A program made the position numbers and the translations under genes. From positions 1 through 39,327 of IMG/VR virus record IMGVR_UViG_3300035698_021947: a stretch of 39,327 bases of DNA, one strand, 5' to 3'. Shown here one piece after another: positions 8,654 to 38,743 of the stretch. This stretch comes from a virus. Position 1 is the stretch's first letter; each line of letters opens with the position of its first letter. The notes below the pieces were generated by a model. That model saw nothing but the letters and a program-made list of their open reading frames with translations, had not been told where the DNA came from and made no database searches.

Positions 8654-9199
8654 TTATCTGTGAATTCTTGTGTTTGTTGGATCGTGTTTTATTTGGAAAA
8701 TGCCTAAACCTTTATTGTTTCCTGCTCCGCCAGCTTTTCTTATTCTTTCTTTTGTTTTGTTGTTTTCAGTTTTATTTGTTTCTAAATAATTAGTAACCCA
8801 TCTTTCTCCATTATCTCCACCATGCAAATTCCACGTTAATATAATTTCTGATTTTAGCATTTCATTTTCTGTTCCTTTTTCGTTTGATTTAATGTTATGC
8901 TTTGTTCTTTCGCTATTAACTTGGGTTTTATACTTATCAAAATAAGCTTTTAATCTTTTTATTTCACTGAAATTCTGAAGTGTTTTTTCTGATAGATTTT
9001 TTGCTTTTGTTTTGCCACTACCATCATTGCCGTGGTTTCCAAGTGAAATATCATTATTATTTAAAACATTTAATGCTGCTGTTGTAGTTCTTACAACATC
9101 ATCTGGTGGAATAACCTGTTCGCTTTTATTAGAAAATTCAAAAGCTTCAAAAATAGAATCTATTTCCTCTTTTATTATTTTTCGAACAAGGTTTTTCAT
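8654..9199 (-). CDS. Tagged virion-like protein with W..W-G-G-D-type C-terminal motif
   Basis: 181 residues. The N-terminus MKNLVRKIIKEEIDSIFE is an amphipathic helix ending in I-F-E before Ala, like a T4-type prohead-protease site. The rest contains VVRTTTAALNVL, NDGSGKTKAKNLS, FSEIKRLKAYFDKY and LTWNLHGGDNGERWVTNYL. An order of S-x-I-K-R-x-K-x-F followed by W-x-x-x-G-G-D-x-G-x-x-W recurs in uncharacterised phage proteins that I recall but cannot name. Likely a packaged or head-associated protein. It starts 3 bases after the stop of 9203, so the two are co-translated. Confidence 0.55.
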   Translation of the reverse strand: MKNLVRKIIKEEIDSIFEAFEFSNKSEQVIPPDDVVRTTTAALNVLNNNDISLGNHGNDGSGKTKAKNLSEKTLQNFSEIKRLKAYFDKYKTQVNSERTKHNIKSNEKGTENEMLKSEIILTWNLHGGDNGERWVTNYLETNKTENNKTKERIRKAGGAGNNKGLGIFQIKHDPTNTRIHR

Positions 9200-9202
9200 T
9201 AA

Positions 9203-9673
9203 CTATTCTCCAATCATATTTAAAATAGCCTGTTTAATATCCATATCTTTAACTGCTGGAAAGCTAATATTCATTAAATTCCAATTAACTTCTTCATAAA
9301 ATGATATGTTATTTATTGGGTGTCCTGATTTTATAGTTCTTTTTATCGCAACTTCCAAAGCCTCACCTGATCTTAATCCGCTTGGTTCTGATTTTGGAGA
9401 TTTGACATCGTTCATTTCTTTTTTTTGAGCATCATCTAAAAAACTTCCAACTGTTTTGCCTTGTCCACCAGTCTGAAATGAACCTGCTACATAATAGTTT
9501 TCATTTTTAAAATCTTTATTTGTATCTTTAGAAATTAAAGCAGACATTCTATCTTTATTTTTCTTTAAATCTGCTTCATTTATGGTTTTTTTTTCTTTTT
9601 CAATACCCTCTTGGAAATTGTCCAAAAAACTAACCATATCATTCATTCTCTTTGTTTCTTTGTTTTTTTTCAT
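9203..9673 (-). CDS. Hypothetical protein, possibly head-associated
   Basis: 156 residues, no family recognised. The charged N-terminal region contains KKTINEADLKKN; T-I-N-E-A around residue 33 recurs in the tagged protein at 21704 (STINEAISF) and fits the T4 prohead-protease pattern (I/L)-x-E. Central Gly/Lys-rich part: YYVAGSFQTGGQGKTVGSFL. The C-terminal helical segment MDIKQAILNMIGE may fold. The start at 9673 has AATATATATT just upstream. Virion association is inferred from neighbours and the cleavage-like motif. Confidence 0.55.
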   Translation of the reverse strand: MKKNKETKRMNDMVSFLDNFQEGIEKEKKTINEADLKKNKDRMSALISKDTNKDFKNENYYVAGSFQTGGQGKTVGSFLDDAQKKEMNDVKSPKSEPSGLRSGEALEVAIKRTIKSGHPINNISFYEEVNWNLMNISFPAVKDMDIKQAILNMIGE

Positions 9674-9686
9674 AATATATATTTTT

Positions 9687-10166
9687 TTACCAAACTACGG
9701 TTCCCAACCCAAGATTACCAGAATAATTTCTAATAGATTTTGGCATAGATTTTTTAAATATTTTTTCAGCATCCATTGTTTGATTTACGCCTATCATAGT
9801 GTTTGATGCGTTTTTTGGTAAATCATCGTTTATCATAATTTCATTTGTATCATCTATAATTTCATTTAAATCTTCGGAAGTGTCTTTTGCATCAATAAAA
9901 TAATCCAATAAGAATGTTAAAAAAATATTTGCACTTTTTTTGTGGTGTAAATTATTTTCAAACCAATTTGTAAAACTTTCTATATGAATTAAAAAATCAA
10001 AAACTTTTCCATATGTTGTAGAAAAATTAATAATAATACAATTTTCATCTAAATTAAACTTAATATCATTTATTTTAGAAATCACTCCATTATCTATATA
10101 TAAAAAATCTTTATCTTTCTCGCTTTGAGACTCTAATATTAAATTTTTTAAACTATTATTAATCAT
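9687..10166 (-). CDS. Hypothetical protein
   Basis: 159 residues. It begins MINNSLKNLILESQSEKD, a short hydrophobic/basic helix with I-L-E before Ser, a weaker version of the tag seen in neighbours. Residues ~24-90 predict an alpha/beta domain (KFNLDENCIIINFSTTYG; VFDFLIHIESFTNWFEN). An Asp/Glu-rich linker follows, then a distinctive tail SMPKSIRNYSGNLGLGTVVW. No known family. It has an imperfect promoter box (TATTTATT) 16 bases upstream, and leads the group 9687-9203-8654. Confidence 0.55.
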   Translation of the reverse strand: MINNSLKNLILESQSEKDKDFLYIDNGVISKINDIKFNLDENCIIINFSTTYGKVFDFLIHIESFTNWFENNLHHKKSANIFLTFLLDYFIDAKDTSEDLNEIIDDTNEIMINDDLPKNASNTMIGVNQTMDAEKIFKKSMPKSIRNYSGNLGLGTVVW

Positions 10167-10182
10167 TATAATTTGTTTTTCA

Positions 10183-10190
10183 ATAAATAG
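10183..10190 (-). promoter_or_regulatory. Candidate late promoter box (TATTTATT variant)
   Basis: The minus strand reads CCTATTTATTGAAAAACA, 16 bases before the ATG at 10166; one mismatch to the TATTTATA octamer, with the usual A-run after it. Confidence 0.45.
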
Positions 10191-10211
10191 GTTATAAAAA
10201 ACATTTTTCGA

Positions 10212-12119
10212 TTATGAATGCAATTTTAAATCTTTTAATGGTTTAAATGATATATCTTTTTCTGTTAAATATTCCATAACTAATCTTTTTAGCCTATCAG
10301 TACCTTGCTTGTTACCAAATCCTTTTAGTTGATGAAATTCTAATCCAGTAATTTTATTATAAGAGAAGCCAATTGTAAATCTTTTATCTTTTTTGTCTTC
10401 TATGTTTTCAGAATCATCAAAAACCTGTCCAATTAAATATATGTTATTAATTACTTTTTTTGAATATGATGATGCACTATGTCTCATAGAAACCCCTTCT
10501 GTTATAAGCATAGATGGATTGTCTATTAGTTTTATGCGTATTGGACCTTTATATTCGTCACTATTTTCTAAATATCTAAACCTATTAACAAAGTCTTTGA
10601 ATTTTTTACTTTTATTTTCATCAGATACAACATTAAAATATTTAACAAGATTGTTGTGGTATTCAACTAATTTGTGATATTCTTTTATTTTTGTAAACTC
10701 TCTGTTTTTATCAAACTCAAGAACCTCCATCATCATAATACAATCATCATAATATGTAAATTCAAATAAATCTACTAAACTATAATCTATATCAAAATCC
10801 TTTCTTAGTGTAGGCTTTTTTTGTAATGTTGTTATTTTTGTATAATTATCTATTATATTAAGAGCATGTTCAACTTCTTTCAAATCCATTTTATCTCTAA
10901 AATAAATCAAATCAATAGTGTGCATTAATAAATCTAAATTATATTTTTGCAAAAGAGATATTATTTGTCTTTTATTGTAAAACTTAAAATATTTTAAAAT
11001 TTGTTTAAAATCTTTAAATTTTTCTATTTTATTAAAAATAAATTTTGAAGCTGTTGAGTCTTCAGATATATTCATTACTTCATAATCTGATGATAGTTTA
11101 TTTTTATTTATTTTGCTTTTATAATCACTGTTTTTTTTAAATTTAACTTCTAATTCTTGTTCTTGATCTAAATTTTTTACTGTAACTTTGTGTTCTTCTG
11201 ATTGAACAAGTTGTTTTGATTTAAATGTAAAACTATGTGTTTCTTTATTATCTTCATTTATTTCTTCGTTAATTTTTTTAATATAATTTTTTATTAAAAA
11301 ATTGAATATTTTCAATGGAGATGTTGCATTGCTTTCTTTCATTGTTTTACTATCTGGAATATCACATTCTGTTATTAAATCATATAAAAACACACTTCCC
11401 TTTGTCATAGCAACAGTAGATAGGTTTGAATATTTTATTATTCCGAATAATATAGATGTTATTTTTTTTATAATATCTAAATTAGCATTGTTTAATTGTC
11501 CTCTCATTTCTCCAATTAAATTATCTACAATATTAATGTTGCTTATATCTGACACATGTTTTGCTATGGCATTTACATACAATTGTAAATTATGTAAGTT
11601 ATATATTATTTTTATATCATTATCAAACATTTTATTTGAATATTTGACAACACTATTTAAATCAAATTCTATTTCATCTGAATCGTAGTTTTTATAAAAC
11701 AGTTTTTTAGAATTTTTTTCAAATCTTATATATTTACTATTTTTATGAAAATGTAATTGATTGTGGTTTTCTTCTTTTTGTAGAACTTTAAATCTATCAT
11801 AAAATACAAAAAGACTTTCATTATCTTCTTTTAGATTAAATTCTGATATAAAATAGAAATTTATTGCAATAAGATTTCTTTGATTGTGTATGCTTGAGTG
11901 GTTTTTTTTACATGAATCACATATTACATCATCTTGACTGCTCAATTTAATACTTTTATATATGTCTTCAAGCCCCAAAGTATCATCAACATAATTACTT
12001 CCTTCGTTGTTTTCTTCGTTGCTTTTATTAAAGATATGACCACAAGAACAAAAATAAACATCATTATTTTTGTTTTCTGCTACAAATGAATAGTCTTTTT
12101 TAATTTCAGTAAATTCCAT
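10212..12119 (-). CDS. Large zinc-ribbon and PcfJ-like protein
   Basis: 635 residues. N-terminus: VYFCSCGHIF (~23-32) and DVICDSCKKNH (~59-69) give two Cys pairs that could form a zinc ribbon. The centre is long, helical and Lys/Asn-rich without motifs (IISLLQKYNLDLLMHTIDLI). The C-terminal ~130 residues fit a PcfJ-like domain: GVSMRHSASSYSKKVINN, IYLIGQVF, RFTIGFSY, LEFHQLKGFGNKQGTDRLKR. The usual Cys after M-R-H is Ser here. It is far larger than the PcfJ-like protein at 1231-2007. Nucleic-acid contact through the zinc ribbon is inference. Confidence 0.6.
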   Translation of the reverse strand: MEFTEIKKDYSFVAENKNNDVYFCSCGHIFNKSNEENNEGSNYVDDTLGLEDIYKSIKLSSQDDVICDSCKKNHSSIHNQRNLIAINFYFISEFNLKEDNESLFVFYDRFKVLQKEENHNQLHFHKNSKYIRFEKNSKKLFYKNYDSDEIEFDLNSVVKYSNKMFDNDIKIIYNLHNLQLYVNAIAKHVSDISNINIVDNLIGEMRGQLNNANLDIIKKITSILFGIIKYSNLSTVAMTKGSVFLYDLITECDIPDSKTMKESNATSPLKIFNFLIKNYIKKINEEINEDNKETHSFTFKSKQLVQSEEHKVTVKNLDQEQELEVKFKKNSDYKSKINKNKLSSDYEVMNISEDSTASKFIFNKIEKFKDFKQILKYFKFYNKRQIISLLQKYNLDLLMHTIDLIYFRDKMDLKEVEHALNIIDNYTKITTLQKKPTLRKDFDIDYSLVDLFEFTYYDDCIMMMEVLEFDKNREFTKIKEYHKLVEYHNNLVKYFNVVSDENKSKKFKDFVNRFRYLENSDEYKGPIRIKLIDNPSMLITEGVSMRHSASSYSKKVINNIYLIGQVFDDSENIEDKKDKRFTIGFSYNKITGLEFHQLKGFGNKQGTDRLKRLVMEYLTEKDISFKPLKDLKLHS

Positions 12120-12160
12120 TGCTATTTTTTTTATTAAAAATATAATAAATTAAAAACAAA

Positions 12161-12186
12161 AAACCAAGCTTTTTAGCCTGGTTTTT
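12161..12186 (-). terminator. Intrinsic terminator
   Basis: On the minus strand AAACCAGGCT, loop AAAA, AGCTTGGTTT, then TTTG and more T residues. The single non-Watson-Crick position is G-U in minus-strand RNA but A-C in plus-strand RNA, so the hairpin is best formed by minus transcripts. It lies between 12213 and 12119. Confidence 0.8.
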
Positions 12187-12212
12187 ATAAATATTAAAAT
12201 ATAATTAAGAAT

Positions 12213-12923
12213 TTAGATTAATTTCAAAGCTTTTTTTGCTTCTTCTTGAATAAATCCAATAAGTTCTTTTTTGTTTTTAAAAGTTTCTGGTAATTGTATT
12301 GTGCTTATTTGTTTGTCTAGTTTCTCTTTATAGTCATCTTTTTCTTGTTCTGCTTTTGCTCTAACATCTTGATCTGTTTGACCTTTTGAAAACCCTTCTT
12401 TGCTTTTTTCTCCCTTTCCTAAAACTTGTGTTTTTGGAGTTGTCTGCTTATCTTCTTTATCTTCTTTTTGCATATCAGTTTGATTTTCTTTATCTCCTGA
12501 TATTCCACCTTTTTTTGTTGGATCTGCATCAACAGAAACATTTGGCATATCTTTTTTAGAAGTTACATCTGGATTAGCTAATCCTGATGCGTGATTTTTT
12601 GTGCCTGGTTTTTTTGAGTTTGTACCTTTAACTTCTGCTGCTGTTGCCCATTGTTCATCAGAACCATCATTTCTTTCTGTCATTTTAACATCAGTAGGTT
12701 GTTCAGTTGAATCAAATTCTTTTGGTATATCCACAGGAGCTGCTGTTTTTTCTTTAAATGTTCCTTTTTTATTTACTGAAACTTTTGCACCAGTTTTTTT
12801 AATTGATTCTTCTGCTTTTTTATTCATTTTTAAATCAATAGGATTTCCAGCGTTTTCAATTTTTTGTTCATTTAATATCTCTAATGCAGTTTCTTTTACA
12901 AATTTTGAAAATTCTTCGTTCAT
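12213..12923 (-). CDS. Disordered, charged protein with N-terminal tag; possible scaffold/internal head protein
   Basis: 236 residues. N-terminus MNEEFSKFVKETALEILNE is an amphipathic helix ending in L-N-E, resembling the tag on neighbours. Residues ~25-200 are low-complexity Lys/Glu/Thr/Asp/Gly (TSKKDMPNVSVDADPTKKGG), probably disordered. A C-terminal helix closes it (KNKKELIGFIQEEAKKALKL). Helix, disordered middle, helix is reminiscent of scaffold or internal head proteins, but this is inference. It has its own TATTTATA box and a terminator after its stop, so it is a single-gene transcription unit. Confidence 0.6.
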   Translation of the reverse strand: MNEEFSKFVKETALEILNEQKIENAGNPIDLKMNKKAEESIKKTGAKVSVNKKGTFKEKTAAPVDIPKEFDSTEQPTDVKMTERNDGSDEQWATAAEVKGTNSKKPGTKNHASGLANPDVTSKKDMPNVSVDADPTKKGGISGDKENQTDMQKEDKEDKQTTPKTQVLGKGEKSKEGFSKGQTDQDVRAKAEQEKDDYKEKLDKQISTIQLPETFKNKKELIGFIQEEAKKALKLI

Positions 12924-12952
12924 AATTTTATATTTTTATATTTTTATTTTTC

Positions 12953-12960
12953 TATAAATA
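12953..12960 (-). promoter_or_regulatory. Candidate late promoter box TATTTATA
   Basis: The minus strand reads GTCTATTTATAGAAAAAT, 29 bases before the ATG at 12923; same octamer and A-rich follow-on as at other late genes. Confidence 0.55.
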
Positions 12961-13023
12961 GACAATAAAATAAAAAAATCAAAAAAAAACACAAAAAAGT
13001 GTGCGATTTTAAAAAATTTTTAT

Positions 13024-13031
13024 TATTTTTG
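13024..13031 (+). promoter_or_regulatory. Candidate TAnnTTTG promoter element
   Basis: TATTTTTG sits 5 bases before the ATG at 13037. It fits the Bacteroidetes -7 box; such spacing would give a leaderless or near-leaderless transcript. Weak evidence alone. Confidence 0.3.
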
Positions 13032-13036
13032 TATTA

Positions 13037-13531
13037 ATGGGAAAAAATAAATTTAAACTATATGTATGTAACTTCTTTCCTGAAAGCTTATTTATACAGC
13101 AATATGGAGAAAATGTATACAATACAATAAAGAACAAAACAAAAAACATGGGTTTTTGTGAAGCTTGTGGACATGAACCAAGACACACTCCAATTGAAAA
13201 GAGCCTTAATTTACATATTTATAATATAGATAACACAAATCCAGAAAATTCGAAAGCTGTAATATTATGCAAAGGATGTCATGCTACACAACATATAGCA
13301 AAATCAATACAAAACAACTGGATAAACTTTGTAAATTCGTCTTTAACACAAGCTAACATTGTAAGAGTATCAAGACATGGAAACCTAATTAATCTATATG
13401 AAGATTCTAAAATAAAAAAATTACAAAAATCCCCTGATAAATTTTTACAAGAAATCAATCAAGGGAAGTTTAAAGTCAACAATACTTTAAAAGTTGTTTT
13501 TACAAATAAGTTTTTATTTAATGACCTTTAA
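13037..13531 (+). CDS. Zinc-binding HNH-like protein
   Basis: 164 residues. Two CxxC pairs (GFCEACGHEP ~38-47 and VILCKGCHATQHI ~80-92) flank LNLHIYNIDNTNPENSKA. A zinc-holding Cys pair, a central H-x(n)-N and a C-x-x-C-H-x-x-x-H end is the general plan of HNH nucleases. The first catalytic His is uncertain (LHIYNI rather than the usual double His), so activity is not assured. It stands alone on the plus strand between minus operons and overlaps the end of 13518-14195 by 14 bases, consistent with a late-arriving homing-type gene. Confidence 0.5.
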   Translation: MGKNKFKLYVCNFFPESLFIQQYGENVYNTIKNKTKNMGFCEACGHEPRHTPIEKSLNLHIYNIDNTNPENSKAVILCKGCHATQHIAKSIQNNWINFVNSSLTQANIVRVSRHGNLINLYEDSKIKKLQKSPDKFLQEINQGKFKVNNTLKVVFTNKFLFNDL

Positions 13532-14195
13532 TTTTAACTGGAGTTAATTTATATAATTTTTCATTAATTTCAACTATTGCTTTGTCTTTATTATAAAATT
13601 TAAATTGTTTTTTTTCTTTATTCTGTTCTATAAACTTTTTTAATATGTTTTGAACTGTTTTTTCAGCAACCTCTTGTGAAATTTGAATTATCAATGATTT
13701 TAACTCTTCTTGATCTAAATTTTCATTTATATTTTCATTTCTGTTTTCATTTATAATGTTGGGAGATTGTCTTGATTTTTGTTGTTGTTGTTTTTCTAAA
13801 AATGATTTTGGGTTATATGCTGGCATATTAATATTATCAACTTGACCTACTTGACCATTATTGTCAAATGATACTGTTGAAACATCCTCAAATAAACTTG
13901 CAAGTTGAGATGCTTCACCACTTTTTTTTGGAGTAAAATTCTTCACTTCAACTTTTTGTACATTTTTTTGTTGTGTTTGAGCTCTTTCTGGCATTTTTTT
14001 AAAATTGTTTTGTTGTGTTTTTTCAACAACTTGACTTTCTATGTTTTTATACATATCCTTTTTCGCTCCTCGTTTTATGTCTTGTAGTTTTTGATGTTTT
14101 GATGATCCTTGTGTAGCTTCCATTTTACTGTTTTGCATAATTCTTCCAGCGTTTGCTGGTAAGCCCATTTCTTTAAATCTATCTTTATTGCTCAT
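13518..14195 (-). CDS. Gln/Asn/Lys-rich hypothetical protein, probably virion-associated
   Basis: 225 residues. Mostly low complexity (KTQQNNFKKMPERAQTQQKN) with short N-E-N repeats (NENRNENINENLDQE) near residues 150-164, matched by repeated ATTTTCATTT-like units in the DNA around 13720-13760. A helix follows (LKSLIIQISQEVAEKTVQNI), then a compact strand-rich end (FYNKDKAIVEINEKLYKLTP). No enzyme motif. It overlaps the upstream gene by 11 bases and the convergent HNH-like gene by 14 bases. Structural role inferred from composition and position. Confidence 0.55.
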   Translation of the reverse strand: MSNKDRFKEMGLPANAGRIMQNSKMEATQGSSKHQKLQDIKRGAKKDMYKNIESQVVEKTQQNNFKKMPERAQTQQKNVQKVEVKNFTPKKSGEASQLASLFEDVSTVSFDNNGQVGQVDNINMPAYNPKSFLEKQQQQKSRQSPNIINENRNENINENLDQEELKSLIIQISQEVAEKTVQNILKKFIEQNKEKKQFKFYNKDKAIVEINEKLYKLTPVKIKGH

Positions 14196-14809: not shown

Positions 14810-14855
14810 ATGAAATAAACATAATTTAAAATATAGTAAAACTAAATAGTTATTT

Positions 14856-15416
14856 TTAGTTATTCTCTGCTGAAGAAAGTAACTCACTAAACCTTTTTTT
14901 GAAAATAGTATTATATAAATTAAAAACTTTAGATATTACATCATTATTTGATTCATTTACTACAAAGTTTTCCATATTTATTATAAACCCATCATTTAAT
15001 GACATTGTAAAATCTATTTTATTGTCAATTGTTCCTTTTGTAATAATATCTAATTTATTATTTTTTATAGGAAATGATAAAATAGATTGTTTTCCATTAA
15101 CAACTTGATTTTCAAACTCAATAGCGTTTCCTGACAAGTGATTATACATATCTTTTTGAAACTGTTTTATCTCTTGTGTTGTAATGCTAATAACTGCATT
15201 CTCATTTATATTGATTTTCTTTTTAATGTTATTATTAGCATTTCCACCATAAAACAAATCTAAATCAACCTGACTCTCTAGTTGTGATTTTGTTCTTTTT
15301 ATTTTTTCTTGTTGTTGCCTTTGTTTGTCTTCAAAGTTAGACAACGTATCAATAGAAGTGTCATTTATTATTTGTCTAATAATTTCTAATACTTTTTCTC
15401 TAGCCTTTTTTTCCAT
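14856..15416 (-). CDS. Hypothetical protein
   Basis: 186 residues. An N-terminal amphipathic helix (EKKAREKVLEIIRQIIND) and a Gln/Lys-rich coiled-coil-like stretch (DKQRQQQEKIKRTKSQLESQ) precede an alpha/beta region (SILSFPIKNNKLDIITKG, DFTMSLNDGFIINMENF). The helical start resembles the tag of other proteins here but lacks the (I/L)-x-E end. It begins one base after the stop of 15418. No known family. Confidence 0.55.
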   Translation of the reverse strand: MEKKAREKVLEIIRQIINDTSIDTLSNFEDKQRQQQEKIKRTKSQLESQVDLDLFYGGNANNNIKKKININENAVISITTQEIKQFQKDMYNHLSGNAIEFENQVVNGKQSILSFPIKNNKLDIITKGTIDNKIDFTMSLNDGFIINMENFVVNESNNDVISKVFNLYNTIFKKRFSELLSSAENN

Positions 15417-15417
15417 A

Positions 15418-17106: not shown

Positions 17107-17751
17107 TTAGTTTATTTTTTCTTTTCTTTCTTTTGAAACACTTACAACTAACCAAATAATACCAGCAACTAGTGCAACACCAGCAGATGCAGCAGCAGCA
17201 TTATTAAATATGCTACCTAAGTCAAGTTTTCCTAACATACCAAATATCTGGCTCATTACTCCAGTAATTAATGTAAAAGCAACTCCACCACCTACAACAT
17301 TGGCAAGTCCCTTTTTAAAATCTTCATAAAGAATACTACTTTCTTCATTAACAGTTCCAACTTGTTGTTTTACTATGTCTTTGATTTGTCTGAAATCTTT
17401 TTCTCCAAACTTTTCATCAAGTTCACTTGCAGCTTTATTAATGTCAATTTTATTTTTTTGTATGAAATCTTCCATTTTTTGTCTAAGGGTATTGAAATTC
17501 AAAAACTTTTTAGCAAAATCAGCCATTTTTCCCTCTTCAAGTTGTTGTCCACTTTGATTTTCTTCTTGCTCAATACTTTGAATTTCTTTTGGTGATAATA
17601 AATTATCATCTTCATCTAATATTTCTTCTTCATGCAATTCTGTTAATTGGTTTTTGATTTGTTTTTTTTCTTCTTGTAACTGTTTTAGTTTTTGTATTTT
17701 AATAACCTCTTCTTTTACAATTTGCTTAATTAATGATTTTTTTACTTTCAT
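17107..17751 (-). CDS. Tagged membrane protein with coiled coil
   Basis: 214 residues. N-terminus MKVKKSLIKQIVKEEVIKI is the same K-I-V-K-E-E-V-type amphipathic helix found on other proteins here, running into a Gln/Lys/Glu coiled coil with L-Q-E (~25-27). The C-terminus has two hydrophobic segments: ~150-168 (VVGGGVAFTLITGVMSQIFG) and ~186-206 (AAAASAGVALVAGIIWLVVS). Probably a packaged or virion membrane-active protein, perhaps ejected; inference. Two tandem TATTTATA boxes lie upstream (17782, 17839), implying high late expression. Confidence 0.6.
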   Translation of the reverse strand: MKVKKSLIKQIVKEEVIKIQKLKQLQEEKKQIKNQLTELHEEEILDEDDNLLSPKEIQSIEQEENQSGQQLEEGKMADFAKKFLNFNTLRQKMEDFIQKNKIDINKAASELDEKFGEKDFRQIKDIVKQQVGTVNEESSILYEDFKKGLANVVGGGVAFTLITGVMSQIFGMLGKLDLGSIFNNAAAASAGVALVAGIIWLVVSVSKERKEKIN

Positions 17752-21703: not shown

Positions 21704-22435
21704 ATGAATTTGAATAAGTCATATAAAAAAAGATTAAAGCTATTAGCAGGTTTATCAACGATAAACGAAGCCATAAGTTTTTCAAATAAAGACTTAAGTA
21801 ATGCATATGATAAAAGTTCTCAGCGCATACAGGGATTTGATATTAATATGATTAAGACGGCAATCAAAGAAGGTAGAGCTATTGGTGTATCATATAAAAG
21901 CAATGAAATGCCTACAATAAAATTTAGAGTAATATTACCAGTAACTGTTGGAAGTTACAAAACAAAGACAGGGACTATATTAAAACTAAGTGCTTTTCAC
22001 TTAGCAGGTCAATCAGAAAAAGCAGCAAGAAAAAATGGAAAAAGAAGTGAAGAAGCATCTAATGTGTGGAGATTGTTTGATTTAAACTTAAGAAAATTTA
22101 AAGGAATGTGGTTTACTGATAGTTTTTTTTATGAGTATCCTCCAGGATATAAAAAAGGAGATAGAAGATTTTCAAGTATACAACAGGAATATGACACTGG
22201 AATGGCCGAATTATATAGAATTGAAAGAGAAGAAAGTAATATTGATGATGGTGTTCCAATACAATTAAGAAATATTGATACACAAGGTGGAACCTCACAA
22301 CAAGATGTATCTAACGATAACGAAAAAACAGATAAGAAAAAAGAACAATTAGATGAAAAAAAGGAAAAAAATCCTTTATATGTAAAAAAACCGTGGTTAA
22401 AATACCTACGAAACAAAAGTAATTATAAAAAATAA
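21704..22435 (+). CDS. Tagged hypothetical protein with possible WYL-like core
   Basis: 243 residues. N-terminus KSYKKRLKLLAGLSTINE then AISF: a basic amphipathic helix ending in I-N-E before Ala, matching the T4 prohead-protease pattern. The core (~47-150) has IKTAIKEGRAIGVSYKS, FRVILPVTVGSY, ILKLSAFHLAGQSEKA and FKGMWFTDSFFYEYPPGY, a strand-rich layout that reminds me of WYL-type domains but is not certain. The C-terminus is charged and disordered. Probably packaged in the head. A lone plus-strand gene; TATTTATT lies only 4 bases before the ATG. Confidence 0.55.
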   Translation: MNLNKSYKKRLKLLAGLSTINEAISFSNKDLSNAYDKSSQRIQGFDINMIKTAIKEGRAIGVSYKSNEMPTIKFRVILPVTVGSYKTKTGTILKLSAFHLAGQSEKAARKNGKRSEEASNVWRLFDLNLRKFKGMWFTDSFFYEYPPGYKKGDRRFSSIQQEYDTGMAELYRIEREESNIDDGVPIQLRNIDTQGGTSQQDVSNDNEKTDKKKEQLDEKKEKNPLYVKKPWLKYLRNKSNYKK

Positions 22436-23537: not shown

Positions 23538-26500
23538 CTATAATATATTTAGTTTTGTTATACCTGCATTTGGATTATTTTCTATGTTTTTTAGTGAAAT
23601 ATCATCCGTATCTTTATATGCATCTATAATATTATCAACAAAATCTTTTATTTCATTTTTATGAGTAATAATTAAAACATTTTTATATTTGTTTTTAAGA
23701 TAATATAGCACATTTACTATTCCAGCAGAAAGCTCATCATCTAAAGTACCAAATCCTTCATCTATAATATTAATAGATGGTTTTATTAAATTACTAATAT
23801 AGTGCAATGCATCTTTTATAACTAAACTGGAAATGAATTTTTGTGACCCAGAAGCAGAAGAAAGTGGAAGTGTGTCTGATTTATCTTCGCTAAAATAAAA
23901 CTCTTCTACAATATCTCCATTAGTTAAGATTTTTAATTCTAATTTAAAATCTACAATTGAACATAATATACTATTTATTTTATTATTAACAATTGGTAAC
24001 TTTTTTCTAATTATTTTAGATGGTATTCCATCTCTATCAACGGCTTGTTGATACATGGAATAAATGCTAAGCTTTTTCTCTGCTTCTAAAACTTCAACAT
24101 ATTCTTTTTCAATAATACCTAAATCGTTTTTTTCTATTCTTAAATCTCCAGATTTTTCTGTTATATTTTGACCGATGTGGTGAATTTCATATTGATAAGA
24201 TTTTTGTTGTTCTTTTTTGTTTTCTATTTCTAAGTCTATACTTTGGTTTAATTTTTCATTCTTAACATTGGTTTCTACTTTAATTAAATTATTTTCCAAG
24301 TTAATTATTGTTTTACCAATTGAGCTTATTTCACCTTCAATAGAAGAAAAGGAGTTTGATTTGTTTTCAACTTCCTGATTGTGTTGTATTATACCTTGTG
24401 AATTATTAATTAAATTGATATTCTTTTCAATTCCTTCTTTTTGTTGTTTTTTAGAAATAAGAGAAGTTTTTAAAAATTCTTTTCGATTTAATTGTTTATT
24501 ATATTCATTATTGTTTTGAATAATTTCATTATTGTTTTTTATTGACTGATTATATTTATCACATTCTAATTGTTTTTGATTAATCTCATTCGTACATTCT
24601 TTATGCTTTTGTGGATCTGCTTTTTTTGTAATAGCTCCACAAGTTGGACAATTCCCTCCATTATATGTTGGCAATTTGTTTCTTAAATTAGAAATTTCAA
24701 TATTTAAATTATTAAATAAGCTTGTGTAATTATTAACATTAATTTCATTTTTCAATGAATTTAATGTTAAAAAGCTTTCTGTTTGAACATATTCTTGTTT
24801 ATCTTTTTGAAACTCTTTGTTTGTTGTTCTTAGGTTATCTGATAAAGTTTTTACATTTAAACTACTATCAAACAAAAGCTCTTTTTTAAAATTACTTGAT
24901 AACCATGTTTTTATTTCATCCTGCTGAGTTTTTTTATTTTCTTTTTCTTGCTTTTTATTTTTAATTTTATTTTTAATTTCTTCTATATTAGATAATTCGT
25001 CACTATTTAAATCATCTATTTGTTTAAGTGTTTTTGTTAATTTAATAATTTCATCATCAATTATGTTTTTTTCAGCTTCTGCTTTAACTTTTTTATTGTT
25101 ATATCCACTTAACTCCTCTTCACATAACTTAATTTTATCGTTTAAAATTAATCTTTTTTCTTCTATTGCGACAATATCACCAAGTTCTTTTTGTTTTCTT
25201 TTTATTTCATTTAAAAAACTTTTTCCATAAACAAACCTATCTCTAAAAAACTCTAATCCCATGTATTTGTTTATTAAATCATTTTTAGGCTGTTGTTTTT
25301 GGTTTAAATAACTATCAGTTCCACCTTGTGACTGCAACGATACTTTTGTAAAATCATCTACTGTACCAATAGCTTCAATTATTAATTTTTTAGCTTCTGT
25401 ATTTTCAGTTGCAGTTTTATTTGATGCTTTTTGAACCCATTTTTCTTGACCTTTTTCATCTGTAATTAATTTTTCATAAATTACAGGATAGGAATTTGTT
25501 GATTTTCCTTTTTTCGTTACTGTTGTTTTAACTTCTCTTTTTATTCTATACTTTTCACCATCAATAAACAAATTGATATTTACATATCCTTTATTTGATT
25601 TTGTGTAAATGTTAACAATTTTCTTAGGATCACCATCTTCTAATATATGTTGATATAATCCCCAAACAAGTGCTTTTATAGTATTTGATTTTCCTGAGAA
25701 ATTCTTTCCAAAAATACCAGTTAATCCCCTATATCTATCTAAGGAAATTTTAACAGGAGTTTCTCCAAATGAAAATATGTTACATATTTCAATATATTCA
25801 ATATCCCATATTTTTAACTCACAATCCACTTCTTTGATTTCAAGTTCTTGGTCTATTTTACGAGCAAATTCTACTAATTCATTAATTAGAATTTCATCAA
25901 ACTCATTATCGCCATCTTCAACAAATTCTTTCAATTGTTCAATAAAAGTTTGTTCATTCTTTGAATCTTCTATATCTTTGTCTGAACCATCTTTTTTCTC
26001 AATAGCCTCAAAATTAACTTTCACAACTTCACATTCATGGTGTTCCTTAACAAATTGTATTATTTGTCTCTCTTTTTCAGTAGAAAAGTTTTCTTCATAA
26101 TCTTCCCATATAATATAAATTTTAGTTTTCTTTTTATTATTACTAAAACTAATGTTATTAATACGTTCTTCAAACAATTCTCCTTTTGCAATAGTTATTT
26201 TTGCAAATCCATAATCATTTGGAATTTTGATTTTTTCAAACTCTCTGTTTTCTATATCCCATAACAAATATCCTTTATCATTAGACTCTCCATTGTTTTG
26301 TTGAATTAAACTTCCTGAATATGCAATAGTTTTATCATCTCTGAAAGCTTGGTGTTCATGTATATCTCCCAACATCACTATATCAAAATTATCAAAAGTT
26401 CCAACATTTAATAAATGTTCTCCAAACAACTCATATCCATTATCTCCTCTTGCACCACTGATTTGACCATGGTAAAAAGCTACATAGGTTGTGTTATCTT

Positions 26501-27014
26501 TTTTACCTGATTTTTTTAATTTTAATATTTCTTCATCTTTACATGAATATACTCCATATACTAAGTCTTTTTTAATTTGGTAATATCCACTGTCTGGGAA
26601 AAAATAAATACCTTTGTTATCAAAGTTTATCTCATCAACATTTTCTTTTGAAACTATGTGAAATTTTTTATTATTTTTTCTTTCTGCCTCTGTAAGAAGT
26701 TCTCTATATTTATCTAAAATTTTGAATATTGGACTTATAGTATCACCTTGGCTTTTTTGCATCATATTTAAGTCATGGTTTCCTAAAAAAATATCTACTG
26801 GTGCTATTTTTGCTAAATCTGTTAAAAACTCAGCACTCAAGTCTATTGATTGTGGTGACATATTTACCTTTTGGTGGTTTAAATCTCCAACAATAGTAAC
26901 TCTATCTACTTTTTGTTTTTTTAAATCAACATTCAAACTTTTGAAAACTTTTCTGTATTCATCATGTCTGCTTGCAAATCTCATGTGTATGTCGGCCAAG
27001 TGTGCTATTTTCAT
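23538..27014 (-). CDS. Mre11-Rad50 (gp47-gp46/SbcD-SbcC) single-chain fusion nuclease-ATPase
   Basis: 1158 residues in one uninterrupted frame. Residues ~1-300 carry Mre11/SbcD phosphoesterase motifs: ADIH (D8, H10), GDLNHQ (D44), GNHD (N79, H80, D81), FYHGQ (H182), GDIHEHQ (H219, H221). Residues ~400-1158 are Rad50/SbcC: Walker A GIFGKNFSGKSN (~433-444), Q-loop LQSQGG (~559-564), coiled coils with zinc hook CPTC (~788-791), signature LSSASGSQKF (~1050), Walker B NIIDEGFGTLD (~1081). In T4 these are two proteins (gp47, gp46) that process DNA ends for recombination-dependent replication. Overlaps the primase gene by 4 bases. Confidence 0.95.
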   Translation of the reverse strand: MKIAHLADIHMRFASRHDEYRKVFKSLNVDLKKQKVDRVTIVGDLNHQKVNMSPQSIDLSAEFLTDLAKIAPVDIFLGNHDLNMMQKSQGDTISPIFKILDKYRELLTEAERKNNKKFHIVSKENVDEINFDNKGIYFFPDSGYYQIKKDLVYGVYSCKDEEILKLKKSGKKDNTTYVAFYHGQISGARGDNGYELFGEHLLNVGTFDNFDIVMLGDIHEHQAFRDDKTIAYSGSLIQQNNGESNDKGYLLWDIENREFEKIKIPNDYGFAKITIAKGELFEERINNISFSNNKKKTKIYIIWEDYEENFSTEKERQIIQFVKEHHECEVVKVNFEAIEKKDGSDKDIEDSKNEQTFIEQLKEFVEDGDNEFDEILINELVEFARKIDQELEIKEVDCELKIWDIEYIEICNIFSFGETPVKISLDRYRGLTGIFGKNFSGKSNTIKALVWGLYQHILEDGDPKKIVNIYTKSNKGYVNINLFIDGEKYRIKREVKTTVTKKGKSTNSYPVIYEKLITDEKGQEKWVQKASNKTATENTEAKKLIIEAIGTVDDFTKVSLQSQGGTDSYLNQKQQPKNDLINKYMGLEFFRDRFVYGKSFLNEIKRKQKELGDIVAIEEKRLILNDKIKLCEEELSGYNNKKVKAEAEKNIIDDEIIKLTKTLKQIDDLNSDELSNIEEIKNKIKNKKQEKENKKTQQDEIKTWLSSNFKKELLFDSSLNVKTLSDNLRTTNKEFQKDKQEYVQTESFLTLNSLKNEINVNNYTSLFNNLNIEISNLRNKLPTYNGGNCPTCGAITKKADPQKHKECTNEINQKQLECDKYNQSIKNNNEIIQNNNEYNKQLNRKEFLKTSLISKKQQKEGIEKNINLINNSQGIIQHNQEVENKSNSFSSIEGEISSIGKTIINLENNLIKVETNVKNEKLNQSIDLEIENKKEQQKSYQYEIHHIGQNITEKSGDLRIEKNDLGIIEKEYVEVLEAEKKLSIYSMYQQAVDRDGIPSKIIRKKLPIVNNKINSILCSIVDFKLELKILTNGDIVEEFYFSEDKSDTLPLSSASGSQKFISSLVIKDALHYISNLIKPSINIIDEGFGTLDDELSAGIVNVLYYLKNKYKNVLIITHKNEIKDFVDNIIDAYKDTDDISLKNIENNPNAGITKLNIL

Positions 27015-31699: not shown

Positions 31700-31707
31700 T
31701 ATAAATA
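31700..31707 (-). promoter_or_regulatory. Candidate late promoter box TATTTATA
   Basis: The minus strand reads GATATTTATAAAAAAAACA, 12 bases before the ATG at 31687, placed in the gap after the 31725 stop. Confidence 0.6.
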
Positions 31708-31724
31708 TCTAATTTTTTATTTTT

Positions 31725-33761: not shown

Positions 33762-33771
33762 AATTTTTTAT

Positions 33772-33779
33772 TATAAATA
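33772..33779 (-). promoter_or_regulatory. Candidate late promoter box TATTTATA
   Basis: The minus strand reads ATTATTTATAATAAAAAAT, 10 bases before the ATG at 33761. A weaker CTATTTATT lies ~40 bases further upstream. Confidence 0.6.
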
Positions 33780-33863
33780 ATACAAGGAAAAAATATTCAA
33801 TTTTTTTTTTAAAATAAATAGTTATTTTATTTAAACATTTATTTCTATAAACTTTTTTGTTAA

Positions 33864-33871
33864 TATTTATA
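33864..33871 (+). promoter_or_regulatory. Candidate late promoter box TATTTATA
   Basis: AATATTTATATAAAAAACA, with the ATG of the baseplate gene 12 bases after the octamer. With 33772 it makes a divergent pair of late promoters. Confidence 0.6.
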
Positions 33872-33883
33872 TAAAAAACAATT

Positions 33884-36493
33884 ATGGCATTTGGAGTACC
33901 AAATAGTGCAAATACATTATCTTTACGTTATAAACCAGGTGAAAACAAAAGATTGCTTAATAGCAATTCAGATGCCTTGTTTACATTTGGAGACTACAGA
34001 ATAGAACAAAATTTAAGTCAAGATTTTTTAGAAAACAACACAAAAAACCTTAGTTTTGATGGATTTTCTACTTTAGAAAGTTTAAAATCTGAAAATTTTA
34101 ATGATAATGTTTTTACAACATCAATAAAAGAAAGTGAATTAAATTTTAAACCAGAGATTCCAGAAAATCATGTATATTTTTCTTCATTTTATACAGAAAC
34201 TGCAAGAGCGATAAATAATATTATTGATAATTATCCATATGCCATTTTATCTTATAACAATGGTTTAGAAAATATTTTTGATTATTCTGAAGAATATGAT
34301 AATATTTCAGGCACAACATCTTCTTCTTTTAAACTTCAACTTTCAGCATTAACAAATCAAAGTTCAATAATAATTAATTCAGGCAATACATTAAATAGAA
34401 CAAGTTTGATGGTTGATTATCGAAACTTTTGTATTCAATTATCGGGTGGTTCTGTAAATCATACTATTAAATCTTATAGTTTTTCTGGAGAACAACTATC
34501 TTTTACAGTTGATGGATATGTATTGTCAGCATCATCTGCCAATACAGTAGCTATTTATATAAGACCAACACCAGAAGAAATAACAAATTTTAGTAGTACA
34601 TTAAGTGCATTAGAATTGCAATTACTTAAAAATGGAGAAATATCTGTTCCAGATATTCAATCTGCCGAAGATGCATCATACATTGAAACATTCGTTTGGC
34701 CAAAAACAATAGATGGATTTGCAATTGATTCCTATGGAACAGAGTTTAATGATTATTCAGAAAACATATTAAAAGCTGCTGAAAAAATTGATGAAGAAAA
34801 AACTAATGTGTTTTTAAAAACAATTATTCCAGAAAACTATATACAATTTGATTCTGATGCAAATATATATCAAACAATAATACAAACTTATGCTAAAGAA
34901 TTTGATAGTTTAAAACAATATATTGATGCAATTGCATATGCACACAGTATTAATTATGATGGAAAAGAAAGTGTACCAAATAAATTTTTAACAAAATTAA
35001 GTAACTTATTAGGATGGGAGCTTTCAGATTCTTTTAGTGAAATTAATCTACTTGATTATTTAACTTCGGATTTAGATGAAGAAAAAAATTCATATTCATA
35101 TTTTAATATTGAAATATGGAAAAGAATTTTAAATAACCTAGTGTGGCTTTATAAGAAAAAAGGAACAAGAGATGCATTAGCTTTTATATTTAAGCTTTTG
35201 GGGGCACCAGATTGTTTAATTGAATTTGATGAATTTGTATATAAAATAAATAGAACAAATAGAACTCCATCTGTTGCGGAAACTGGAGCATTACAAGTTG
35301 AGTATTTAAAAAATCAAAATAAATTAGTTTCTTTTTATACAGCAGGCGAACTGAACAATACACATCAAACACTTGTTTCAAGTTCATCTGGTTATTTAAT
35401 GCCTTATAGCGGAAGTGTTATACAAAATCCACTATCAAGTAATTATGAAAATAGCAAAATTGATAATTTTGGATTTCCTGACATTAAAAATTCTTATAAA
35501 ATTTTCCAAGAAGGTGGAAAAGGAAGAGGAAATGGTCAAGAATATATAAAACAATGGAAACCAAAATATGATCCACAAAAAACATTGGATAATGTAAAAA
35601 TATCAACTGGAAATACAGATATAAGAATTGGAACAAAAGACATTATTAATTCTAAAGAAATGAATTTATGTTTTTCTCCTTCTAAAGCAATTGAAAATGA
35701 TGTGTTTGAGTTTTATAAAAAAGAATGTAGTTGTTGGGAATTTGGTTCTACTTGTCCTTTTAGTGCAGTGACTGTTCCAATAGAAAATTTAAATTACAAC
35801 TGCTCTGTTGTTAAACCAACAAATATATCTACAATGACACTGAATCAGTATATTGATTATATATTTACAAACTCAGTTAATCCAAGAAACAGAAAAACAT
35901 ATGCACAAGGAAATATTGTATATCATTATCCAGAGTTAAAAAATGCTTATTTAAATTATTATTATAGCACAAGTCCAGAGGAAAACCATTTAACAATTGG
36001 CAAACTAGAAAATTATTTAGATTTATTAGGAGTTAAACTTGGAAAGTATATAAAACAATTATTACCAGCAACAACAATTACTAAAGGAGATGGAAGCATT
36101 ACATATAAAAATCCTGTTTTCCATAGACAAAAATTTGTTTATAAAAAAGGAATTGATGATGGTTCTAAATTTAAAACATATTTTCCTGAAAAAGCAGATC
36201 CAACAATACAAACAAACAAAATTTCATTAGAGTCAATTCCAACAAAAGAAATGACAATAACAACTGCACAAATAAATATGCAGAATGTTAAATCTAATGA
36301 TATGCCAATATGTCCAATAATAATCAACTCTATATTTCCACAAAAAACACATTTAACAACTTGTAGAGGTTATAATATTAATATGGAAGTTAATTATAAT
36401 AATATATTAACAGAAATACCAACATGGTCAGCAGAAATAGGATTGCCAAATACCTCAGAGAAACAACTATTTAGCGTTAAACAAATAAATTAA
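33884..36493 (+). CDS. Baseplate/tail protein with contractile-tail P2 gpI-like domain
   Basis: 869 residues. Around residues 330-455 it contains YAKEFDSLKQYIDAIAYA, LTKLSNLLGWELSDSF and, at ~417-455, NLVWLYKKKGTRDALAFIF then KLLGAPDCLIEF. The L-Y-x-x-K-G-T-R-x-x-L-x-F-x-x-K-L-x-G pattern is characteristic of phage tail/baseplate proteins of the gpI/TIGR02242 type in contractile tails. The N-terminal third is beta-rich and Ser-rich; the C-terminal part includes a Cys-containing stretch (KKECSCWEFGSTCPFSAV). Heads the plus-strand structural operon; 6 bases to the next gene. Confidence 0.8.
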   Translation: MAFGVPNSANTLSLRYKPGENKRLLNSNSDALFTFGDYRIEQNLSQDFLENNTKNLSFDGFSTLESLKSENFNDNVFTTSIKESELNFKPEIPENHVYFSSFYTETARAINNIIDNYPYAILSYNNGLENIFDYSEEYDNISGTTSSSFKLQLSALTNQSSIIINSGNTLNRTSLMVDYRNFCIQLSGGSVNHTIKSYSFSGEQLSFTVDGYVLSASSANTVAIYIRPTPEEITNFSSTLSALELQLLKNGEISVPDIQSAEDASYIETFVWPKTIDGFAIDSYGTEFNDYSENILKAAEKIDEEKTNVFLKTIIPENYIQFDSDANIYQTIIQTYAKEFDSLKQYIDAIAYAHSINYDGKESVPNKFLTKLSNLLGWELSDSFSEINLLDYLTSDLDEEKNSYSYFNIEIWKRILNNLVWLYKKKGTRDALAFIFKLLGAPDCLIEFDEFVYKINRTNRTPSVAETGALQVEYLKNQNKLVSFYTAGELNNTHQTLVSSSSGYLMPYSGSVIQNPLSSNYENSKIDNFGFPDIKNSYKIFQEGGKGRGNGQEYIKQWKPKYDPQKTLDNVKISTGNTDIRIGTKDIINSKEMNLCFSPSKAIENDVFEFYKKECSCWEFGSTCPFSAVTVPIENLNYNCSVVKPTNISTMTLNQYIDYIFTNSVNPRNRKTYAQGNIVYHYPELKNAYLNYYYSTSPEENHLTIGKLENYLDLLGVKLGKYIKQLLPATTITKGDGSITYKNPVFHRQKFVYKKGIDDGSKFKTYFPEKADPTIQTNKISLESIPTKEMTITTAQINMQNVKSNDMPICPIIINSIFPQKTHLTTCRGYNINMEVNYNNILTEIPTWSAEIGLPNTSEKQLFSVKQIN

Positions 36494-36499
36494 AAAATA

Positions 36500-38179
36500 A
36501 TGATTTTAAAATACAATATAAATAATAGAATTTTTTTTAAAAACGAGTATAACAAAACTGCTGGGAATACAAATAATATATCTCAAACATTTTATTCAAA
36601 TAGATGGGCAAATTCTAAAACAGATAAAGGTGAACTTTTTACCTATAATATGCCAATATACACATCAAACTGTAACACGACAAATTATTATCAACAAACA
36701 GTACATTCAGTTCTTACAAATACTGTTAAACCAGTTATTAGGTTTAATTTTAGTGCTAACACAACAAGCTTTGGTGCTAACACAACAATAATACATAAAA
36801 TATTCAAGATAGACTATGAAACATTTTCTAAAAATTCATCCATAGCAGAAGATAATACAATTTCATCAACATCAAAGAAAGAAACAACCATAGATGAAAA
36901 CGAAAATACAACCACAAGAACAATCAATGAAACTACTAAAAAAACAGAAACAAAAGAAAATTTTATTTCTAAAGATTCATATAGCACAGAAGAAGAAATT
37001 GATTTTGAAAAAAATACTATTGAAAATCATAATGATATTATTAACTTAATGAAAAATCCAGTTTTAACAATTAGTGCTACAACAACTGGAATAACAACAA
37101 ACATATATGATTTAAATTTAGATGAATATTATAAGCAACTTGGAAAACATAAATTTAAACTATTTGATGATAAATCTCAATATTTTTTAACGACTGATTT
37201 TGAATTCAAAAAAGAAAGTGGAGAAAATTATATTGATTTTTATCAATTAAGCGGAGAAACACAGCATTTAAATGAATTAGATTATCAAACAACATTAACA
37301 GAACAAACAGAAACAACAAAACATACAATAACTGCTGGCACTTTTTCTGGAGTAAGCGTAATGGGTAATTATTTTTCCTACTTCCTTGTTCCAAATAAAC
37401 CAAAAATACAAGAACCATATATTGAAGGTGTTTTAGATACATTTTCTCCAACTTTTTATTTTTCTGATGTGGATGATGGAAATGAATATTTAATTCAGGT
37501 TGTTTATGAAACAGATGATTCTCAATCGTTCTCTGGTGTTGTATATTCTTATCCTTTTAGCAAAGAAGAAAGCAGCCTAAGTACAGACGAAATGATTGGA
37601 GTTGAAAGTAGTGTTTGGGGAAAAACAATAGAAACAACAGATATTATAAGGAAAATAACCATATCATTAAAACCAGCAAAACAATTTTGGTATAGAATAG
37701 GAAATATTAAAAAATTAAAAAACATATTTGATATAGATCAAAGTGTTGTAACTTTTTCAAATATTAATTCTGCCACAACAAGTTCAGATAACTTATCAGT
37801 ATTTGTTTCAGTTAGAGTTGATAGTCCATACACAACAGATGTTTCATCATATCAAACACCACCATGTATAGATAATACTGGTGGAGAATATATTCTTAGT
37901 GGAACTGTTAGTGGAAGCATTGTTACTGGAGCTACAATGCAATTAACATATCCAAATGGTAATTATATAAATAAACAAACAACAGATATGGGATCTTTTT
38001 ATTTTGATTCTCTTGAAATTGGTGATTATACATTAAATACTTATTATAGAGGATATCAACAAGACTCCAGAGATATAAGCATAACTGGAAACACAACAGT
38101 AGGGTTTAAATTAAAATTGCTATGGGGCAATGCTGATGATTCATGGGGAAAATTGGCAAATGAAAATTATTTTGTTTAA
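36500..38179 (+). CDS. Virion structural protein with carboxypeptidase-regulatory-like domain
   Basis: 559 residues. Thr/Asn/Ser-rich and beta-rich with a Lys/Glu/Thr-rich linker around 115-175 (TTTRTINETTKKTETKENF). Residues ~463-535 fit a carboxypeptidase-regulatory-like (Ig-type) fold: YILSGTVSGSIVTGATMQLT, TTDMGSFYFDSLEIGDYTLN, RDISITGNTTVGFKLKL. The end WGNADDSWGKLANENYF is Trp-rich. Such domains decorate phage tails, baseplates and capsids, often for surface contact. Follows the baseplate gene by 6 bases. Confidence 0.7.
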   Translation: MILKYNINNRIFFKNEYNKTAGNTNNISQTFYSNRWANSKTDKGELFTYNMPIYTSNCNTTNYYQQTVHSVLTNTVKPVIRFNFSANTTSFGANTTIIHKIFKIDYETFSKNSSIAEDNTISSTSKKETTIDENENTTTRTINETTKKTETKENFISKDSYSTEEEIDFEKNTIENHNDIINLMKNPVLTISATTTGITTNIYDLNLDEYYKQLGKHKFKLFDDKSQYFLTTDFEFKKESGENYIDFYQLSGETQHLNELDYQTTLTEQTETTKHTITAGTFSGVSVMGNYFSYFLVPNKPKIQEPYIEGVLDTFSPTFYFSDVDDGNEYLIQVVYETDDSQSFSGVVYSYPFSKEESSLSTDEMIGVESSVWGKTIETTDIIRKITISLKPAKQFWYRIGNIKKLKNIFDIDQSVVTFSNINSATTSSDNLSVFVSVRVDSPYTTDVSSYQTPPCIDNTGGEYILSGTVSGSIVTGATMQLTYPNGNYINKQTTDMGSFYFDSLEIGDYTLNTYYRGYQQDSRDISITGNTTVGFKLKLLWGNADDSWGKLANENYFV

Positions 38180-38187
38180 TATTTATA
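38180..38187 (+). promoter_or_regulatory. TATTTATA box very close to a start
   Basis: The octamer ends 4 bases before the ATG at 38192 and overlaps the end of the preceding gene's stop region. If it is used, the mRNA would be leaderless; otherwise it is a chance match. Confidence 0.35.
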
Positions 38188-38191
38188 TGAA

Positions 38192-38743
38192 ATGAAAAAT
38201 AAGCTAAGACATATAATAAAAGAAGAGATAAATAATCTTTTGTCAGAAAAGGAAGAAATCTTTGTTCCACATAATATAAAAGGAAGAAAAAAACAACGCT
38301 TGCAACAAATATATAAAACATTGCAACAAAAACACATTCAAGGCAATTTGGATTTAAATAATACAGATATAGCACATCTTGGGAAACTTGAATCTATTAG
38401 CGGGAATTTAAATTTAATAGGTACAAAAATAACATCACTTGAAAATTTAAAGAAAGTTGGTGAATCTTTAGTTTTAGAAAACACACCAATAACTTCACTT
38501 GGAAATTTAAAAGAAGTTGGTGGTGATTTAGATTTAGATAATACAAAAATAATCTCACTTGGAAGTTTAATTAAAGTTGGTGGTTGGTTATATTTAAAAA
38601 ACACACCAATAACTTCACTTGGAAACTTAAAAGAAGTTAGAAATCAATTAAACTTAGAAAATACACCAAATCTATCTTGGGATGATATACCAAAACATTT
38701 ACATAATCAAATACAAGGAAAAAATATAAAATACGACATATAA
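38192..38743 (+). CDS. Tagged leucine-rich-repeat protein
   Basis: 183 residues. N-terminus MKNKLRHIIKEEINNLLSE is the tag helix ending in L-S-E. Residues ~51-170 are six 20-residue leucine-rich repeats of the form G-x-L-x-L-x-x-T-x-I-x-S-L-x-x-L-x-x-V-G, for example GDLDLDNTKIISLGSLIKVG, the last one degenerate. They should form a curved solenoid for protein binding. The tag suggests it is packaged into the head; the partner is unknown. It lies in the plus-strand structural operon and its last repeat runs to near the C-terminus. Confidence 0.75.
   Translation: MKNKLRHIIKEEINNLLSEKEEIFVPHNIKGRKKQRLQQIYKTLQQKHIQGNLDLNNTDIAHLGKLESISGNLNLIGTKITSLENLKKVGESLVLENTPITSLGNLKEVGGDLDLDNTKIISLGSLIKVGGWLYLKNTPITSLGNLKEVRNQLNLENTPNLSWDDIPKHLHNQIQGKNIKYDI
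38341..38700 (+). repeat. Six tandem 60-base repeats (LRR-coding)
   Basis: Exact 60-base period coding 20-residue leucine-rich repeats. Units near 38481-38520 and 38601-38640 are almost identical in DNA (AACACACCAATAACTTCACT then TGGAAA...), 120 bases apart, pointing to a recent two-unit duplication. Confidence 0.85.

Follow-up and report, generated by a model that had tools for sequence, protein, structure and literature searches.

Phage T4 addresses diverse cargo proteins to its head by means of a capsid targeting sequence (CTS) of 10-19 residues, which is cleaved by the protease gp21 after L/I-X-E (PMC9026906, PMC3012670), and the ADP-ribosyltransferase Alt is among the proteins that this phage packages and ejects (PMC9026906). 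That a single targeting peptide can serve a variety of packaged proteins is already known from the T-even phages (PMC3012670, PMC9026906). Here, we describe short terminal tags on proteins with different bodies, encoded by the 39,327-nt virus record IMGVR_UViG_3300035698_021947, which is a fragment of a virus (GC content 25.6%; this whole stretch is referred to as the window), and by related phages. Judging from the sequences, these tags act as propeptides for capsid loading, in the manner of the T4 CTS, a reading to which we give a probability of about 0.83, and the tagged proteins would probably be packed in the head and delivered with the DNA into the next host.

Two types of tag are found in the window: class 1 (xxLxxIIKEEIxxxLxE), held by proteins 8654 and 38192, and class 4 (RxxxLAG..[LI]xE, the LAG tag), held by protein 21704. 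All three were scored with models built without the window rows (window-excluded models) and run on all six-frame stop-to-stop frames of the window. The strongest class-1 tag, MKNKLRHIIKEEINNLLSE (38192-38248, + strand; E 8e-7), is predicted to be cut after E19 and precedes a leucine-rich-repeat (LRR) body (38249-38743, + strand) in which a regular repeat of 20 residues occurs five times, at residues 53, 73, 93, 113, and 133; this protein has a relative in locus L005 (57% identity across 113 aa), and locus L006 also encodes tagged LRR proteins. The tag of 8654, MKNLVRKIIKEEIDSIFE (9146-9199, - strand; E 1e-3), with a predicted cut after E18, is followed by a slightly basic body of 163 aa (8654-9145, - strand; K+R 27, D+E 20), for which PHROGs gave no convincing match and the single-sequence fold was poor (pLDDT 43) and uninformative. 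The class-4 tag of 21704, MNLNKSYKKRLKLLAGLSTINE (21704-21769, + strand; E 4e-7 with the class-4 model), whose RxxxLAG-type stretch is SYKKRLKLLAGL, has a predicted cut after E22 and is near-invariant in 18 of the 19 aligned homologues, with a different, class-1-like start in L131. Its body (21770-22435, + strand) belongs to a conserved family of 38 members, as defined by clustering, and was modelled by AlphaFold2 with a pLDDT of ~90 across most of residues 31-165; the best Foldseek matches of this model are the WYL-domain proteins PafBC and BrxR (E 0.007-0.03, probability 1.0), tentatively suggesting a possible WYL-like fold. Searches of PHROGs and Pfam with the window's tagged proteins gave no function except the LRR. 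An earlier note on this DNA had proposed a common N-terminal tag on a larger set of proteins, and the N-termini that it quoted are all present where it placed them. The tag proved real for 8654, 38192, and 21704, with the LRR protein as a solid member; on the other hand, the set is smaller than proposed, and a single tag family for the whole window was rejected, given that 21704 carries a LAG tag and not a class-1 tag.

To compare the placement of the tags with chance, 11 records that comprise 1,442 called proteins and 367,719 residues were used, at a model threshold of ≥10 bits. The class-1 model matched 35 N-termini, one C-terminus, and five middles, and the LAG model 12 N-termini, 10 C-termini, and one middle, while shuffled proteins gave zero matches for class 1 and zero for class 4. 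The strict class-1 core was found 32 times in the first 20 residues versus five times elsewhere, a 75-fold enrichment, although relatedness among the 11 records inflates the significance given by the Fisher test (p 1e-30); among the called proteins of the window, this core occurs at three places (8654, 17107, and 38192), all of them N-terminal. Since the class-1 model had been seeded from N-terminal sequences, two tests free of positional constraint were also made, in which DNA patterns for [LF]K[QK]IIKEEI and RM[KQ]KLAGI were sought anywhere in viral contigs; the counts from both scans are lower bounds, the motifs being commoner than these. For [LF]K[QK]IIKEEI, at least 97 in-frame occurrences were found in the 80 loci listed, 89 of them no more than 25 residues from the first ATG, and the remaining listed matches comprise three that lie in a longer frame and have an ATG no more than 15 residues away, one C-terminal, three in the middle, and one at a contig edge. 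For RM[KQ]KLAGI, 69 of the 81 matches listed end 0-4 residues before the stop codon, 10 are N-terminal, and two are ambiguous. Gene starts in metagenomes are mechanical open reading frame calls, so a few of the tags in the middle of proteins probably reflect misplaced starts. Contigs with a GC content near 40-50% also carry tags. On reading the sequences, two of the three middle matches of the first pattern look like GTG starts.

The same genomes hold two other N-terminal tags, named class 2 (MKxFNLKKYLAENKLLNE) and class 3 (MKLLxENWRKFINE). Searches of named phages by tblastn with the 21-22-residue tags, which are too insensitive for queries of this length, found none for classes 2 and 3 and only LR756508 for class 1. 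In this 484-kb huge phage, the region 150000-199999 (L192) shows about 14 class-1 tags in its 50 kb, several of them in runs of adjacent small genes.

The end of the tag coincides with a putative cut site. In 33 non-redundant class-1 tags, E is present at 70% and a hydrophobic residue two positions earlier (P3) at 82%, and the column information is high through the E and then falls at once to small-sample level. Among the matches listed, [ILVMF]xE occurs within nine residues after the class-1 core in 63 of 79 distinct bodies versus four of 79 in the control residues 13-21. Comparable sites end the N-terminal regions of the capsid proteins themselves: HMLNE in G034, SMLNE in G036, ELLRE in G005, QLVTE in G010 and G011, HMINE in G018, QIVSE in Flavobacterium phage immuto, and QLISE in Microcystis phage Mel-JY01. 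A variant ending was seen in two adjacent tagged LRR paralogues of L006 (3382-4350, - strand), whose starts close with NDFDW in place of LxE; NDFDW or NDFGW was seen again in L004 and L005.

Beyond the tag, the proteins have little in common. The tagged proteins form 59 clusters, and 55 representatives can be aligned in the tag only. Conversely, different tags are found on homologous bodies: class 1 versus class 4 in L161:15242 and L158:16765 (40% identity over 95 residues), and class 1 versus class 2 in L082:18942 and L091:4744 (93% over 58 residues). In the family of window protein 14856, two relatives start with a class-1 tag and four others end in a LAG-type tip (RMKKLAGL, RMKRLAGL, and RMKKLSGIK among these tips), and the two tag forms of this family are joined by hhalign with a probability of 98.7% and an E of 5e-16 (alignments A5 and A6). 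By eye, the proteins at 133468 in G005 and 140226 in G011 have a common start of the body behind a class-3 and a class-2 tag, respectively, and L055:11840 holds tandem tags, with a LAG tag first and a class-1-like tag behind it. The case of 21704 and its L131 homologue is weak by itself, since the L131 start could be a diverged LAG tag. The earlier proposal of a T4-like propeptide ending in (L/I)-x-E withstood each test made here and is supported by the N-terminal position of the tag in the position-free scans, by a conservation that stops at the E, and by the exchange between bodies. The domains recognised in the cargo bodies are NUDIX, SprT-like, ART-PolyVal, DUF3990, DHH, and LRR, although several of these matches have weak E-values, and the ART-PolyVal, DUF3990, NUDIX, SprT-like, and LRR types fit delivered effectors. 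Three class-1 tagged genes lie in L015 (437-2295, - strand), two of them with very lysine-rich bodies, possibly DNA-binding head proteins, and the third running into a Tat-like stretch, RRKFCQMMAATGGALA.

The class-4 tag connects these peptides to the head itself. Among the 69 C-terminal LAG proteins listed, 65 have downstream room, and in 64 of these a gp23-like gene lies directly next (≤1.5 kb, same strand), which argues for class 4 as a copy of the scaffold tip. Among the matches listed, a protease is found upstream in 28 of these 64, nine have none detected, and 27 offer no room to see one. The protein before gp23 ends in RWQKLAGIIK in immuto, in RMKKLAGIVK in Mel-JY01, and in RIKRLAGL in Rhodothermus phage RM378, and the huge phage LR756508 shows the variant tip RMQKLADIS, while the LAG tip is absent from T4 gp22 and from the HTVC008M scaffold. 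The scaffold-position proteins matched no named scaffold family of Pfam or PHROGs, and their identity as scaffolds rests, therefore, on gene order and on their acidic, coiled composition. A chance look-alike of the LAG tag was noticed in a 1111-aa protein of G034 (92545-95880, - strand; in L167), where the internal stretch RLSLLAGLIDSDGHL resembles a motif of LAGLIDADG homing endonucleases or inteins.

The window encodes an SNF2-type helicase, a PD-(D/E)XK nuclease, an SbcC/gp46-47-type protein, and an endolysin, and is best explained as part of the genome of a large far-T4 phage. With the gp46-47 protein as query, 32 related viral loci were retrieved; identity was about 39-49% for 31 of these and 24% for the other. 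Homologues of most of the window's genes from 14 to 37 kb are present in these loci. Two long relatives of the window, G034 (232 kb) and G036 (96 kb), hold a T4-type head module that consists of a gp21-like protease, a scaffold-position protein, and a gp23 capsid protein. The gp21-like protease, for which the earlier note had suggested a search, is absent from the 39-kb window and was found in these relatives (PF03420; E 2e-34 in G034 and 2e-32 in G036), as well as in G035, G005, G010, and G011. The capsid protein of G034 (PF07068, E 3e-75) adjoins the protease. By their capsid protein, the nearest cultured relatives are the phages immuto and Mel-JY01, and RM378 is nearest to the more distant record G010; a search with the tail protein matched no named phage.

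These observations suggest a model for which we infer the docking partner, packaging, cleavage, ejection, and cargo roles. An N-terminal class-1 amphipathic helix or class-4 LAG helix would dock the cargo into the assembling prohead, and in some proteins a C-terminal LAG peptide would do so instead. The LAG peptide would work by mimicking the C-terminal tip of the gp22-like scaffold. As a copy of that tip, it should bind the tip's partner, most likely either the capsid protein, on its inner side, or the core. A protease of the gp21 type would then cut after (I/L)-x-E, as in the maturation of the capsid protein, and the cut cargo would stay loose in the head until its ejection together with the DNA. 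In more general terms, the far-T4 phages and huge phages that infect aquatic bacteria are likely to rely on a modular set of about four short, interchangeable address peptides to load many effectors into the head, one of them a natural copy of the scaffold tip that can be placed at either end of the cargo, with the protease site following at N-termini; the scaffold tip would then be a portable packaging signal.

Several points weigh against capsid loading. No virion proteomics of any tagged phage was found in the literature searched, and packaging and cleavage are predicted from sequence. Head genes are absent from the window. Most records without PF03420 are fragments, which does not account for several of more than 100 kb that also have no such domain. 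About one fifth of the class-1 starts among the matches listed have no nearby hydrophobic-x-E, so some of them may stay uncut. NUDIX and SprT-like enzymes are also ordinary cytoplasmic phage proteins. In profile searches, T4, P-SSM4, and HTVC008M showed no class-1 or class-4 tags at N-termini, with one internal match in HTVC008M, which leaves homology to the T4 peptide unsupported. A published structural-proteome study of cyanophages covers S-SM1, S-PM2, and Syn9, of the same family as P-SSM4 and HTVC008M.

Of the competing explanations, the one that survives best, and which we still consider unlikely, is that capsid-targeting tags mainly build the prohead core, the tagged proteins being assembly factors that are degraded rather than cargo that is delivered. 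The LAG peptide is present on the scaffold itself, and the small proteins encoded at the gene 67/68 position have class-1-like starts; however, enzymes and folded domains are found among the tagged bodies (NUDIX, SprT-like, ADP-ribosyltransferase-like, and LRR), and these bodies, unlike core genes, vary greatly among related phages. Docking to some other virion or intracellular assembly (tail, baseplate, membrane, or replication compartment), rather than to the head interior, seems improbable. Membranes or a range of partners could be bound by an N-terminal helix that is amphipathic, and some tagged genes are distant from the head genes, but the class-4 tag is the scaffold tip encoded beside the capsid gene, classes 1, 2, 3, and 4 swap on homologous bodies, and the tags end in hydrophobic-x-E, like the propeptide of the capsid protein. 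Finally, a resemblance by composition, in which AT-rich genomes (the window has a GC content of 25.6%, and K, E, and I are frequent) would be biased towards K, I, and E and the likeness of short N-terminal helices would be accidental, has next to no standing, being refuted for classes 1 and 4 by the shuffled proteins and the 75-fold N-terminal enrichment, and also opposed by the tags in contigs near 40-50% GC and by the position-free scans.

Under the capsid-loading reading, other window proteins may join the tagged set. The start of 17107, MKVKKSLIKQIVKEEV (17704-17751, - strand), is a probable class-1 variant, with a strict core match and without a clean cut site; it did not score above chance with the window-excluded models, and its orthologue in L136 has a similar start. 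Its body (17107-17703, - strand) is a membrane protein candidate: a long coiled stretch is present and, towards the C-terminus, there are hydrophobic segments (hydropathy >1.6 at residues 152-170 and 181-208). Protein 12213 (12213-12923, - strand), a possible cargo with the N-terminal helix MNEEFSKFVKETALEILNE, was likewise not above chance with these models, and its homologues in L159, L141, and G040 have class-1-like starts. The proposed membership is plausible for both, 17107 being a probable member on its strict core despite the lack of a significant model score, and 12213 drawing on its homologues without model support. Protein 14856 (14856-15416, - strand) represents a probable cargo family: its own tag is weak, and the support comes from its orthologues, which carry a class-1 start or a C-terminal RMKKLAGL. 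Protein 15418, also proposed earlier as tagged, was rejected, as its helix belongs in the orthologues to the conserved protein and is not necessarily at the start. With the window-excluded models, 28198 scored weakly (E 3.4) and 9687 was not detected, and the resemblance of these two may be due to composition.

Other features of the window were noted in passing. Its gene starts mostly lack a Shine-Dalgarno motif and are A-rich upstream, which would fit a Bacteroidota-type host. The SbcD-like and SbcC-like (gp47/gp46) parts are apparently joined in one 1158-aa frame (23538-27014, - strand), and the matching stretch is ~1 kb longer in L154 and L157, suggesting an inserted intron or intein there. 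The C-terminal parts of the proteins at 1231-2007 (+ strand) and 10212-12119 (- strand) are PcfJ-like by eye, and the former matched only PHROGs families of unknown function. A K/E-rich protein of 681 aa (4690-6735, - strand), which has no homologue in the fetched relatives, carries TSTGGAYATPLGN; by eye, this stretch resembles the TGxxGYxTPxAF stretch of the small proteins at the gene 67/68 position in related head modules.

If capsid loading is true, a simple sequence rule would predict which uncharacterised proteins are carried by the virion and delivered at infection in a large and abundant group of environmental phages, and the proteins so predicted would be candidates for host takeover and anti-defence. 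It would also define a testable docking site, the partner of the scaffold tip, and provide a natural short tag for the loading of phage heads with proteins, for which the T4 CTS and the engineered scaffold fusions of P22 are comparable tools. No paper on these tags, or on the scaffold tip as a natural packaging tag, was found among open-licence full texts.

Compared with known systems, the tags most closely recall the T4 CTS of IPI, IPII, IPIII, and Alt, a short N-terminal peptide common to unrelated bodies that ends in the gp21 site L/I-x-E. As in T4, a gp21-type protease and a gp23 shell are present, here in the window's relatives, and an ADP-ribosyltransferase is among the proteins loaded by T4 (PMC9026906). 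A homology of the tags to MKTYQEFIAEA, the peptide of T4, was rejected, since the class-1 and class-4 profiles find nothing in T4, and classes 2 and 3 resemble MKTYQEFIAE by eye only. Unlike T4, some of the genomes described here hold at least 10 tagged genes and several interchangeable tag classes, and their LAG tag is identical to the scaffold tip and is also used at the C-terminus. The ejection proteins of giant phages related to phiKZ and SPN3US offer a second parallel, in that head-protein propeptides are cut after glutamate by a gp21-related protease (PMC10052503, PMC9026906). In the parts of these sources consulted, those propeptides are, unlike the tags described here, mostly long (111-254 residues), with sites of the type A-x-E or S/A-x-E, and a short tag common to many bodies is not described for such phages (PMC10052503, PMC9026906). 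On the other hand, the LAG tag resembles the engineered loading of P22, where cargo enters the procapsid via a C-terminal part of the scaffold, whose C-terminus touches the coat (PMC9962691). The P22 fusion is engineered and uses a long scaffold fragment, whereas the LAG tag is a natural candidate of ~10 residues that is found at either end of the cargo.

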